Shown here: positions 4,915 through 41,204 of the stretch, in pieces
How positions within the stretch are numbered: position 1 is the first letter of the stretch
Layout of the letters: every line of letters starts with the position of its first letter
DNA from: an uncultured Ectothiorhodospiraceae bacterium
GTDB taxonomy: Bacteria > Pseudomonadota > Gammaproteobacteria > XJ16 > Halofilaceae
Direction of reading: 5' to 3'
Assembly: GCA_913055615.1 (NCBI GenBank)
Contig: CAJXKK010000008.1
Span: forward strand, 1-64,000
Length of the DNA: 64,000 nt
Made by a program: the position numbers and the translations under genes
Notes under the pieces: model-generated
Database searches by the model: none
The model's input: only the letters and a program-made list of their open reading frames with translations
What the model was told of the DNA's origin: nothing

Positions 4915-4997
4915 CGGCGAGTCCGGCGAGTCCGGGCGAGTCCGTGGTCAGAGTAAATAAAAACTCGGCGAGTCCGGGATCAGAGTAAAAACTCGGA
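4915..4997. repeat. REP-1 repeats, left side of RAYT1
   Basis: CGGCGAGTC-type units recur about four times, together with two copies of GGTCAGAGTAAA...AACTCGG (about 4946-4970 and 4976-4997). The second is an exact inverted match of CGAGTTTTTACTCTG, found at the 3' end of the transposase gene 800 bases to the right. This is the usual placement of REP sequences flanking their own RAYT gene. Confidence 0.7.
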
Positions 4998-5070
4998 CCC
5001 ACGCGGTTACTCCCGGTATCCGGATCGGTATCCTTGTCACGGACAAGGCACGTCAAGTCACGGAGGACTC

Positions 5071-5805
5071 ATGGCACGAGGGAACCGTGTATGCCCCGCG
5101 GGTGTGGCCCAGCACTTGATCCAGCGCGGCAACAACGGCCAGCCCTGTTTCGGCGGAAGGGAAGATTTCGGAGCGTACGCGCACTGGCTTCGTGAGGCGG
5201 CCGAGCGCCACCGGGTAGCCATTCATGCCTGGGTATTCATGACCAACCACGTGCATCTTCTGGCCACCCCGTTCACGGACGAAGGCGTCTCGCGCATGAT
5301 GCAGCACCTGGGACGGCGCTACGTGCGGTATTTCAACCATGTCCACGGGCGGACCGGAACTCTCTGGGAGGGCCGCTTCAAGGCCTGCGTGGTCCAGGAT
5401 TCAGCCTACCTCATGCGTTGTTACCGTTACATCGAGCTCAATCCGGTTCGGGCCAGGATGGTGTCGGATCCTGCTGACTACCGCTGGTCCAGCTACCGGG
5501 TGAATGCCCTCGGTATACAATCGGTCCTGTGTACACCCCACGAGATCTACCGCGGCCTTGGGCAGGGCGCGGAACGGCTGACGGCCTACCGCGCGCTATT
5601 CGCTGCTCAGGTCGACGACGAGCCCATCGCGGAAATTCGCGAGGCCACGCGTCGCGGCCACGCCCTGGGTGACGAGCGCTTCGTTCGTGAAATGGAGGCG
5701 CGGACTGGAACGCGGCTGCGAGCCGGGAAGCCGGGGCCGAAGGCGAAGGGAGAGTCGGATGATTGCATCCCGGACACTACGATGGCGAGCGAGTTTTTAC
5801 TCTGA
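5071..5805 (+). CDS. REP-associated tyrosine transposase (RAYT1, IS200-like Y1/HUH)
   Basis: A 244-residue Y1 transposase. The HUH metal motif is HVHLL in MTNHVHLLATP, and the catalytic tyrosine lies in the helix CYRYIELNPVRARMV. These single-strand transposases bind and cleave REP hairpins. The gene is flanked by inverted copies of REP-1, and the right copy is part of the coding region: the codons for SEFLL and the TGA stop are themselves GCGAGTTTTTACTCTGA. The C-terminal tail after residue 180 (EIREATRRGHALGDERFVRE) is found again at 7380-7561 as a relic. The start at 5071 is preceded by GGAGG at about 5060. Probably intact and possibly active. Confidence 0.85.
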   Translation: MARGNRVCPAGVAQHLIQRGNNGQPCFGGREDFGAYAHWLREAAERHRVAIHAWVFMTNHVHLLATPFTDEGVSRMMQHLGRRYVRYFNHVHGRTGTLWEGRFKACVVQDSAYLMRCYRYIELNPVRARMVSDPADYRWSSYRVNALGIQSVLCTPHEIYRGLGQGAERLTAYRALFAAQVDDEPIAEIREATRRGHALGDERFVREMEARTGTRLRAGKPGPKAKGESDDCIPDTTMASEFLL

Positions 5806-5813
5806 CCCCGAAT
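5789..5813 (+). repeat. REP-1 copy overlapping the RAYT1 stop codon
   Basis: GCGAGTTTTTACTCTGACCC and the following CGAAT overlap the last codons and stop of RAYT1. The inner part is the perfect reverse complement of the copy at about 4981-4995. Confidence 0.75.
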
Positions 5814-6260
5814 ACCCCTGGTTCGGTATACCGTCCCCGGAATTCATGTCCCGTGATTCGCGCACATCGGCGGAAGGTCGCCATAATGGAACCTCGGCGC
5901 TGAGCGGTCGACAACTGCGTGATATCGGGGTGGAGCGTCGCCGCAGAACCGGGGTCACAGAATCGGGGTCACACAGAACCGGGGTCAGATGATACTTGCG
6001 TGTGGAGTTCGGGGTCAGTGGGAGTTCGGGGGCAGAGTAGGAGCTTCCGGGTACCGCAGTCAGTGGGTTTTTACTCTGACCCCCGAAACTCCGCGACTCG
6101 GACGACTACTGGACGAAAACACTCGCCGCCGTCGTAACCCGGCCGCCTTGCAGGGGCGGGTACAGGCCACGAATCGGGTCGAAGGGTGGCCAGATGCGTG
6201 GTCTGTTTTCTATTGTCCGGTGTCGATTCTCGCCGCGAAGACTACCGGGAACTCCGCGTG
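5814..6260. repeat. Intergenic region with degenerate REP-1 copies
   Basis: No gene is seen in these 447 bases. From about 5935 to 6030 the motif CGGGGTCA or a close form recurs five times. A good REP-1 copy TTTTTACTCTGACCCCCGAA is at about 6068-6087. About 6140-6260 resembles a promoter-proximal leader for the antiporter gene, but no clear promoter was found. Confidence 0.55.
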
Positions 6261-7295
6261 ATGCTCGACCCAGCGACCTCCAGCCTGCCATGGGCGACCG
6301 GTGTGTTCGTGCTTGCCGCCGCCGTGATCGGCGTCGCGGGCAGCCGGTTGAGCTCGATCTGCGATCGACTGGCCGACCGAACGGGCCTGGGGGAGGCCTT
6401 CACCGGCGCCGTTCTGCTCGGCGCGGTCACCTCGCTGCCGGGCATTACCGCTTCGGTCACCGCCGCACTCGACGGGCTGCCGACCCTTGCACTGTCGAAT
6501 GCGATCGGTGGCATCGCGGTGCAAACGGCCTTTCTGGCGATCGCCGACATCGCCTACCGCCGCGCCAACCTCGAGCACGCCGCGGCATCCGTACCAAACA
6601 TGATGCAGGCGTCGCTCCTGGTCATACTGCTGGCTTTGATGCTGGCCGCTATGGCTGCGCCGGCGGTAACGGTTTTCGGGGTGCACCCGCTTTCACCTCT
6701 GCTCCTGGTCGTCTACGGCTTCGGCATTCAAATCGTCTATCGTAGCCGCGAACACCCGATGTGGACGCCCCGGATGACGCGGTCCACACGGCTCGACGAG
6801 CCCGATGCGGGGGCGACCGGACTCCCGCTCCAGCGCCTCTGGATCGAATTCGTGGTGGTCGCGGTGCTGGTCATCGGAGCCGGCGTGGCCGCTACTCGTT
6901 CGGGGGAACAGATCGCGACTGCGACCGGGATGTCGCACACCTTCGTCGGTGCCCTGCTGCTCGCGGTCGCTACGTCGCTGCCCGAGCTGGTCACCTCCGT
7001 GGCGGCCGTTCGGCGGAGTGCCTTGACGCTTGCGGTGGGCGGCGTCATCGGGGGCAACGCGTTCGACACGCTGTTCGCAGCCGTGGCCGACTTCGCCTAT
7101 CGCTCCGGTTCGCTGTACCACGGGGCGAGCGGAGGAGAGCAGTTCCTGATCTCGCTCACGATCGTCATGACCGGCGTGCTGCTGCTCGGGCTGTTGCGAC
7201 GCGAGCGGCTGGGAATTGCGCGCATCGGCTTCGAGAGCTTCGCGGTGCTCGTGCTCTATACGGGCGGCATGGTGATCCTTGGCGCCGCCCTGTGA
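6261..7295 (+). CDS. Sodium/calcium exchanger family membrane antiporter
   Basis: A 344-residue inner-membrane protein with about ten hydrophobic segments in two homologous halves. The two alpha-repeats are plain: GAVLLGAVTSLPGITASV near residue 45 and GALLLAVATSLPELVTSV near 230, the second being the classic cation-binding form. In the first repeat a Gly stands where the usual Glu follows SLP, so ion stoichiometry or activity may differ. A hydrophilic linker (about 165-190) joins the halves. The ATG at 6261 is chosen over upstream codons that fall in repeat DNA. The gene lies between RAYT1 and a relic of a second RAYT1 copy, with REP-1 units on both sides, so it may have been carried or trapped by the repeat. 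Confidence 0.8.
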   Translation: MLDPATSSLPWATGVFVLAAAVIGVAGSRLSSICDRLADRTGLGEAFTGAVLLGAVTSLPGITASVTAALDGLPTLALSNAIGGIAVQTAFLAIADIAYRRANLEHAAASVPNMMQASLLVILLALMLAAMAAPAVTVFGVHPLSPLLLVVYGFGIQIVYRSREHPMWTPRMTRSTRLDEPDAGATGLPLQRLWIEFVVVAVLVIGAGVAATRSGEQIATATGMSHTFVGALLLAVATSLPELVTSVAAVRRSALTLAVGGVIGGNAFDTLFAAVADFAYRSGSLYHGASGGEQFLISLTIVMTGVLLLGLLRRERLGIARIGFESFAVLVLYTGGMVILGAAL

Positions 7296-7346
7296 ACAGT
7301 CGAGGGCGCGGCATGTTCCCGGAATCCGTCCGGTGTGGGATAAATG

Positions 7347-7369
7347 GAGTTCTTACTCTGACCCCGAAC
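7347..7369 (+). repeat. REP-1 copy
   Basis: GAGTTCTTACTCTGACCCCG and trailing bases, same orientation as the copy at 5789. It directly precedes the RAYT1 relic. Confidence 0.7.
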
Positions 7370-7379
7370 TCCCGAACTC

Positions 7380-7561
7380 CGATCGCGGACATCCGCGAGG
7401 CCACGCGTCGCGGCCACGCACTCGGCGATGACCGCTTCATCCGGGAAATGGCGGCTCGGACCGGGACGCGGTTGCGAACCGGCAATTCGGGGCCGAAAAC
7501 AAAGGGCATATCGGACGACGGCGATCCTGATGCGACGGTGGCGAGCGAGTCTTTACTCTGA
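7380..7561 (+). pseudogene. RAYT1 relic: C-terminal 60 codons only
   Basis: The reading IADIREATRRGHALGDDRFI continues to ...DATVASESLL and stops at TGA 7559-7561. It aligns along its length with the last 60 residues of RAYT1, differing at roughly a dozen positions. The HUH and Tyr parts are absent, so it cannot be active. The final codons again form a REP-1 unit (about 7546-7569). The divergence shows it is an old copy or comes from a related element, not a fresh duplication. Confidence 0.85.
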
Positions 7562-7678
7562 CCCCGAATATCCCTGCGTCTTAGGCGTTCGACCTCGAAT
7601 CAGCGCGGATTCGTGGTCTGTCCCCTGGTGCTTCTCGCTTACTATACTGTCAGCAGATATCTCGATCCGGGGGGCGCA

Positions 7679-40513: not shown

Positions 40514-40548
40514 GTAGGCCGGTTTTCGGCGTAGCCGAATGCCGGCAC
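40514..40548. repeat. REP-3 unit left of RAYT2
   Basis: GTAGGCCGGTTTTCGGCGTA followed by GCCGAATGCCGGC. A near-identical unit lies 87 bases after the RAYT2 gene in the same orientation. Confidence 0.85.
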
Positions 40549-40581
40549 TGACGGGTTGGCGATTCCACGGAAGGAGTCACT

Positions 40582-41085
40582 ATGGCTGATTATCGACGCT
40601 TCGTCGTTCCGGGCGGGACGTATTTCTTCACTGTCGTCACGGCGAATCGACGTCCGTGGTTGTCGCGCTACTCGGCACGCGGAATCCTGGCCGGGGTGAT
40701 GCGCGAGGTTCGATCTGAATTCCCGTCCGAGACCGTCGGCCTGGTGGTTTTGCCGGACCATCTGCACGCCTTGTGGCGGCTGCCGGATGGTGACAGCGAT
40801 TTCCGTGGTCGCTGGCATCGCATCAAGCAGCGGGCCACGCTTCGACTGCGCACAGCCGAGGGTTTGACGGGACGGTTGTGGCAGCCGCGCTTCTGGGAAC
40901 ACGTGATCCGCGACGAGGATGATTTGCGGCGCCACCTCGACTACATCCATTACAACCCGGTCAAGCACGGGTTTGTCGGCTCACCCCGTGACTGGGGGCC
41001 GAGCTCGTTTCACCGGTATGTGACGGCCGGTGTCTATGCGGCCGATTGGGCGGGACCGGATGTCGAATTCGAGGTCCCCGAGTAG
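40582..41085 (+). CDS. REP-associated tyrosine transposase (RAYT2)
   Basis: A 167-residue Y1 transposase of the compact type. The HUH motif is HLH in VVLPDHLHALWRLP, the catalytic Tyr lies in LDYIHYNPVKHGFV, and the basic segment WHRIKQRATLRLR is near residue 75. It is bracketed by direct REP-3 units at 40514 and 41172 plus an inverted one at 41124, which marks REP-3 as its substrate family. It differs strongly from RAYT1 in length and sequence. Appears intact. Confidence 0.88.
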   Translation: MADYRRFVVPGGTYFFTVVTANRRPWLSRYSARGILAGVMREVRSEFPSETVGLVVLPDHLHALWRLPDGDSDFRGRWHRIKQRATLRLRTAEGLTGRLWQPRFWEHVIRDEDDLRRHLDYIHYNPVKHGFVGSPRDWGPSSFHRYVTAGVYAADWAGPDVEFEVPE

Positions 41086-41123
41086 GGATCGGACGTCATT
41101 TTGACGATTTCAGGGCTCGTCGT

Positions 41124-41204
41124 GCCGGCATTGCCCTCCGGGCAAAACCGGCCTACGGCTGGGGGAATGAGGTAGGCCGGTTTTCGGCGAAGCCGAATGC
41201 CGGC
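41124..41204. repeat. REP-3 inverted pair right of RAYT2
   Basis: GCCGGCATTGCCCTCCGGGC...ACCGGCCTAC (41124-41157) then GTAGGCCGGTTTTCGGCGAA...GCCGGC (41172-41204). It ends 10 bases before the hrpB stop codon. Confidence 0.85.

Follow-up and report, generated by a model that had tools for sequence, protein, structure and literature searches.

A probable TIRYT-type transposase gene whose stop codon lies within the right terminal inverted repeat of its element

RAYT-like genes flanked by terminal inverted repeats (TIRs) with the motif GGGGWSAS were described by Di Nocera et al. in 2013 and named TIRYTs; the figures of that study also mark repeats that overlap the 3' or the 5' end of the gene (3'ov, 5'ov) (PMC3733652). 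In a classification published in 2018, most TIRYTs were placed in TnpAREP subclass 2.1, and no REP-like sequence was reported near them (PMC6006769). At the ends of IS200/IS605 elements, pairing between guide and cleavage site has been established for IS608 (summarised in PMC8266576). A biochemical determination of the TIRYT recognition site was not found in the literature searched, and a search for papers quoting the core sequence described below in the context of TIRs or transposases returned unrelated papers only.

The locus analyzed here lies within a stretch of 64,000 nucleotides from an uncultured Ectothiorhodospiraceae bacterium (contig CAJXKK010000008.1), referred to as the window, and its features are listed in Table 1. 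The protein encoded by RAYT1 matches the Pfam domain Y1_Tnp (5.5e-10) and the structure of E. coli TnpAREP (4er8, E=0.00037), with a weak match to ISHp608 (2a6m, E=0.48); against the NCBI equivalog model for RAYT (NF047646) it scores 70.7 bits, which is under the cut-off of 80. The HUH motif is H60-V-H62, and the catalytic-type tyrosine Y120 aligns with Y115 of 4er8. All three residues (H60, H62 and Y120) are invariant in an alignment of 23 homologues, and RAYT1 thus combines the HUH motif, the catalytic tyrosine and the RAYT kinship of a Y1/HUH transposase, as is characteristic of TIRYTs. The last invariant residue in this alignment is G222, so that the conserved protein stops at about residue 222, and the EFLL tail is present only in genes that carry the TIR in frame. 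For the C-terminal 101 amino acids, no Pfam match was obtained up to E=1, including the HTH-like families Bac_DnaA_C, HTH_23 and HTH_28, and the same was true of three homologues.

Table 1. Positions of the transposase gene, the relic and the TIR copies in the window.
Feature	Position	Strand	Remarks
RAYT1, TIRYT-type Y1 (HUH) transposase gene	5071..5805	+	244 aa; C-terminal end ...M-A-S-E-F-L-L-TGA
Right TIR	5790..5816	+	centre T5803; RAYT1 stop is the TGA of the TIR
Left TIR closest to RAYT1	4969..4995	-	contains CGGGATCAGAGTAAAAACTC; 4975-4994 inverted, 19/20 match to 5791-5810
Second left TIR copy, partly degenerate	4937..4963	-	direct tandem with the first; 4943-4962 inverted, 15/20 match
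Degenerate left-type TIR copies, cluster	5944..6046	-	CGGGGTCA-like repeats
Right-type TIR copy	6064..6090	+	contains GGGTTTTTACTCTGACCCCC; direct copy of the unit at 6065-6084
Right-type TIR copy, directly 5' of the relic	7346..7372	+	perfect 7-bp arms GGAGTTC/GAACTCC; unit at 7347-7366
Relic, 5'-truncated copy of the 3' tail of a sister element	7379..7576	+	last 60 codons, stop and right TIR

The stop codon of RAYT1 (TGA, 5803-5805) is located at the centre of a repeat of about 27 bases. Bases 5791-5810 read GAGTTTTTACTCTGACCCCG and include the last four codons together with the stop, GAG TTT TTA CTC TGA, which confirms the proposal of a first-pass annotation of this DNA that the end of the gene (SEFLL-TGA) is itself the repeat unit. 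As it had also noted, the unit recurs in inverted orientation 5' of the gene, namely in both left copies of Table 1. A further direct copy of the 20-base unit is found within the relic (7547-7566). No 20-mer with at least 15 positions matching the unit occurs in the other 61 kb of the window (outside 4.7-7.7 kb), and CAGAGTAAAA is found six times with at most one mismatch, compared to 0.5 expected occurrences; the recurrence of the unit is therefore not due to chance.

A sodium/calcium exchanger gene (Pfam Na_Ca_ex, 1.7e-25; window 6010-7372) is situated between left-type TIR copies (6004-6046) and the right-type TIR in front of the relic. These TIRs share inverted matches of 15-26 nt, as if the exchanger gene were carried between them. 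A homologue with 73% identity is present in a different context in a genome of the same genus (G155). Two same-genus genomes contained no empty insertion site for the RAYT1 element, and synteny with the locus was absent: G155 has only the exchanger gene in common with it and G266 only a distant transposase.

The position of the stop codon was compared across homologues drawn from two sources, 274 genomes belonging to the class and scanned GTDB contigs, which yielded 105 distinct homologues and, together with RAYT1, 106 loci. A right TIR was recognised in 88 of them (RAYT1 included), while in 18 none was recognised by pattern, partly through a diverged motif. The expectation that the stop always lies in the repeat did not hold: it coincides with the TGA of the TIR in 20/88 loci, precedes it by 6-66 nt in 62/88 and follows it by 7-13 nt in 6/88, where the gene reads through in another frame. 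Genes ending clear of the repeat, which the first-pass annotation had regarded as the mark of a chance overlap, are thus the majority. Within one subgroup with read-through in another frame (L022, L026 and L036, also L029 and L035), the proteins end in ...K-R-A-L-T-P-stop and the arms of the TIR read AAAGG/CCTT.

On a transposase tree built with the tail excluded, the in-frame stop state changes 17 times, with at least seven changes forced by well-supported branches, and it is clustered no more than shuffled labels (17 changes versus a mean of 18.3; 118/500 shuffles as low). The constant feature is closeness, since the gene end is nearly always no more than a few dozen bases away from the TIR core, and the stop never requires host sequence well past the element. 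Of 26 genes whose reading frame stays open as far as the TIR, 20 use its TGA, where one third would be expected (p 7e-6, with shared ancestry ignored). This excess may hint at selection, with a stop supplied inside the element being mildly favoured; a simple reason would be that in this frame the protein ends inside the element.

Taken together, we consider it very likely that RAYT1 is the transposase gene of a compact element packed against its right TIR, that its stop lies in the TIR by happenstance and that the TIR is kept for DNA recognition. Such an element would be of the IS200/IS605 type and of the TIRYT kind, and the repeats of about 27 bp at its ends would represent TIRs recognised by the transposase. 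Tight packing against the right TIR could place the end of the gene anywhere from about 66 nt before the TIR centre to 13 nt past it, and the reading frame of RAYT1 would happen to stop at the TGA inside the conserved core CTCTGACCCC. The sequence of the TIR would be kept for DNA recognition, translated or not, and the RAYT1 protein would presumably bind it as single-stranded DNA and cut at its outer edge.

An alternative explanation is a local accident, in which this copy of RAYT1 lost its original stop and now reads into the TIR. The relic bears directly on this question. It aligns without gaps to 5623-5820 with 80% identity over 198 bp, ends in SESLL-TGA and starts just behind another right TIR (Table 1). 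Its differences to RAYT1 are distributed over codon positions 1/2/3 as 10/3/25, and only 2/31 bases differ in the TIR part. The relic derives from a sister element whose gene was still functional while the two diverged. The first-pass annotation was right that the relic (which it placed at 7380-7561) keeps the same arrangement, including SESLL-TGA; however, as the relic is homologous to the 3' end of RAYT1, this arrangement is inherited and does not constitute an independent case. Since the two copies share the arrangement and diverged under codon constraint, the in-frame stop is probably older than their split. Beyond residue 226, the tail of RAYT1 exceeds that of most homologues in length, as a lost stop would lead one to expect, but the sister copy is arranged alike and 19 other homologues have the in-frame stop as well, which makes a local accident unlikely.

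It could also be assumed that the overlap serves a function. The binding site would then be carried at the 3' end of the gene or its mRNA and would allow the transposase to recognise, and perhaps repress, the gene or transcript from which it is made, with the shared bases under a double constraint. The preference for the TGA among genes reaching the TIR (20/26) would fit such a role, as would the higher frequency of all four GAGT/ACTC pairs in the in-frame class (35% versus 3-17% in the other classes). However, in 62/88 loci the gene terminates short of the TIR, and the tree requires about 17 switches of state. Moreover, the overlapped class shows no extra conservation: the mean match to the 25-nt TIR consensus is 18.2 in the in-frame class, compared to 19.7 and 19.9 in two classes with the stop upstream. 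The hairpin GAGT-TTTT-ACTC is weak and not conserved across loci (42% of cells pair versus 40% in shuffles), and its fold is no more stable than that of shuffled sequence (z -0.4 and -0.8; as DNA of the + strand -1.5 kcal/mol, z -0.4); it was consequently rejected as a conserved element. We therefore regard a functional overlap as very unlikely, and there is no support for the idea that the same bases are subject to both coding and hairpin constraints, as the untranslated TIR is equally conserved and the tail is not. That the TIR is equally conserved when untranslated, that G222 is the last invariant residue and that EFLL occurs only in frame argue instead for a TIR kept as DNA, next to which any protein tail is tolerated. 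The related view of a transposase carrying its substrate within its coding sequence stands insofar as the coding sequence enters the terminal repeat of the element and borrows its TGA, but not as a special design, because the overlap is not conserved (20/88).

The first-pass annotation had named the unit REP-1, a label at odds with its distribution and motif. The core TCAGAGTAAA has exactly five copies in the 3.0-Mb genome, all within 4948-7561, and GGGGTCAGAGTAAAA with up to three mismatches gives eight sites in the locus and six weak ones (three mismatches each) in the rest of the genome, compared to nine for a reversed control pattern. Copies outside the locus are hence at control level, and a genome-wide REP was rejected. 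REPtrons have many dispersed copies and a GTAG/GTGG tag beside the stem; the RAYT1 repeat is restricted to one locus and its flanking copies bear no such tag. The right TIR, read on the reverse strand, is GGGGTCAG, in agreement with the motif GGGGWSAS published for TIRYTs, from which GGGATCAG and GTGGTCAG in the left copies deviate by one base; RAYT1 is accordingly flanked by TIRs in the manner of TIRYTs. Because it is confined to one element in the genome, the repeat qualifies as a terminal inverted repeat rather than as a REP population. That RAYT1 is a classical REP-associated tyrosine transposase with dispersed REPs is extremely unlikely and largely refuted by the copy count: it is kin to RAYTs (NF047646, 4er8) and the core reaches up to 31 copies in some other genomes, but here it occupies one locus without a GTAG tag adjoining the stem, the RAYT1 score is under the curated RAYT cut-off, and a real RAYT with GTAG repeats outside the gene is present at 40582-41085.

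This second gene, RAYT2 (window 40514-41188 including its repeats), scores 169.8 bits against NF047646 and lies between GTAG-tagged palindromes (GTAGGCCGGTTTTCGGC..., e.g. 40514-40547). Its repeat is rare in the genome too, with five sites at up to one mismatch, four of them within 36.7-41.2 kb. The window thus contains one TIRYT and one classical RAYT.

Comparison of the loci also provides insights into the shape of the TIR. With the T of the TGA set as 0, positions -7 to -10 and +7 to +10 are complementary in 65-83% (right TIR) and 62-85% (left TIR) of loci, around the core TTACTCTGACCCC. Over arm positions 7-13 the mean complementarity is 57% versus 42.5% and 39.5% in shuffles, a value reached by 0/2000, and in shifted registers it does not exceed 41%. 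When independent paths on the tree are contrasted, covariation is clear only at position 8 with all branches included; well-supported branches alone supply very few pairs. These results give moderate support for arms that tend to pair around a constant 13-nt core. The pairing could reflect a hairpin with a large loop or a guide-to-cleavage-site interaction as at IS200/IS605 ends; it is compatible with the IS200/IS605 scheme, where single-strand cleavage of the end is guided by a tetranucleotide 5' of the hairpin.

Among 79 loci with both TIRs, 33 extra gene-derived copies were detected within about 1.5 kb, of which 19 coincide with the element at one end (to within 6 nt), one is full length, 10 are internal and three extend past the end. 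Ends in common with the element are expected of any decayed copy. It is less expected that several copies directly adjoin the outer edge of another TIR with their cut end: tail copies are located behind a right TIR (L093, L098, L108, L118, L082) and head copies in front of a left TIR (L090, L097, L107, L029, L092, L114). Nested self-insertion is disfavoured, since it would leave both halves, and in the near-identical L093, L098, L108 and L097 the other half is missing. Such abutting copies would be the outcome if the TIR edge were nicked and the template then switched.

Short TIR-bounded elements are also present in related genomes. In G077, dispersed elements bounded by the same TIRs occur in both orientations (L130-L136); they comprise about six copies of about 130 bp and a longer one (L136) whose TIRs enclose the final codons of the transposase. 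As these short elements occur away from the gene, a TIR pair seems sufficient to define a mobile unit. A 1.4-kb array at L146 (G125, C1:2628909-2630297) contains at least nine left-type and four right-type TIR units, between which a segment is repeated. A single near-perfect palindrome is formed at L145 (G218, C49:1-127), where two nested left TIRs adjoin two right TIRs without an insert.

Only tentatively, and with considerable doubt, we propose that the TIR is a palindromic unit with the constant 13-nt core set in co-changing arms of 4-7 nt, at whose outer edge the enzyme nicks. Such nicks would give rise to partial tandem copies (tails behind the right TIR, heads before the left TIR) as well as to short derivatives bounded by TIRs. 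Among these products would be the relic, and the stop codon would travel with the right TIR as a by-product.

The overlap is thus a real but ordinary result of tight packing, of a kind already on record as 3'ov since 2013, and its interpretation as dual coding is not supported. RAYT1 clearly illustrates how tightly a gene can be packed against the end of a small mobile element, and it warns against reading such overlaps as dual coding. In addition, the comparison of about 100 loci offers a testable picture of the TIRYT recognition site, in which a 13-nt core is fixed, the arms pair and breakpoints recur at the outer edge.

Comparing the element to known systems, it shares with IS200/IS605 members (IS608, ISDra2) a Y1 HUH transposase and recognised structures at both ends, whereas IS608 terminates in imperfect hairpins that have guide tetranucleotides, and not in terminal inverted repeats (PMC8266576). 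RAYT/REPtron systems with GTAG REPs (Nunvar et al. 2010, PMC2817692), such as RAYT2, likewise have an HUH/Y1 transposase between inverted repeats, but differ from RAYT1 by the conserved GTAG tag and usually many dispersed repeats, and the repeats of RAYT2 lie outside the gene. With TnpAREP subclass 2.1 (PMC6006769), RAYT1 has in common a long Y1 protein with an added C-terminal part, GGGG[AT][CG]A[CG] inverted repeats and no GTAG REP, while the HTH-like C-terminal domain of that subclass has no Pfam match in RAYT1. From the TIRYT/TIRtron (PMC3733652) there is no fundamental difference: both combine a RAYT-like Y1 transposase with GGGGWSAS inverted repeats, the 3' overlap and TIRs that occur singly, in dimers and in clusters. 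To that description the present comparison adds that the position of the stop shifts freely relative to the TIR and that the arms of the TIR tend to pair.
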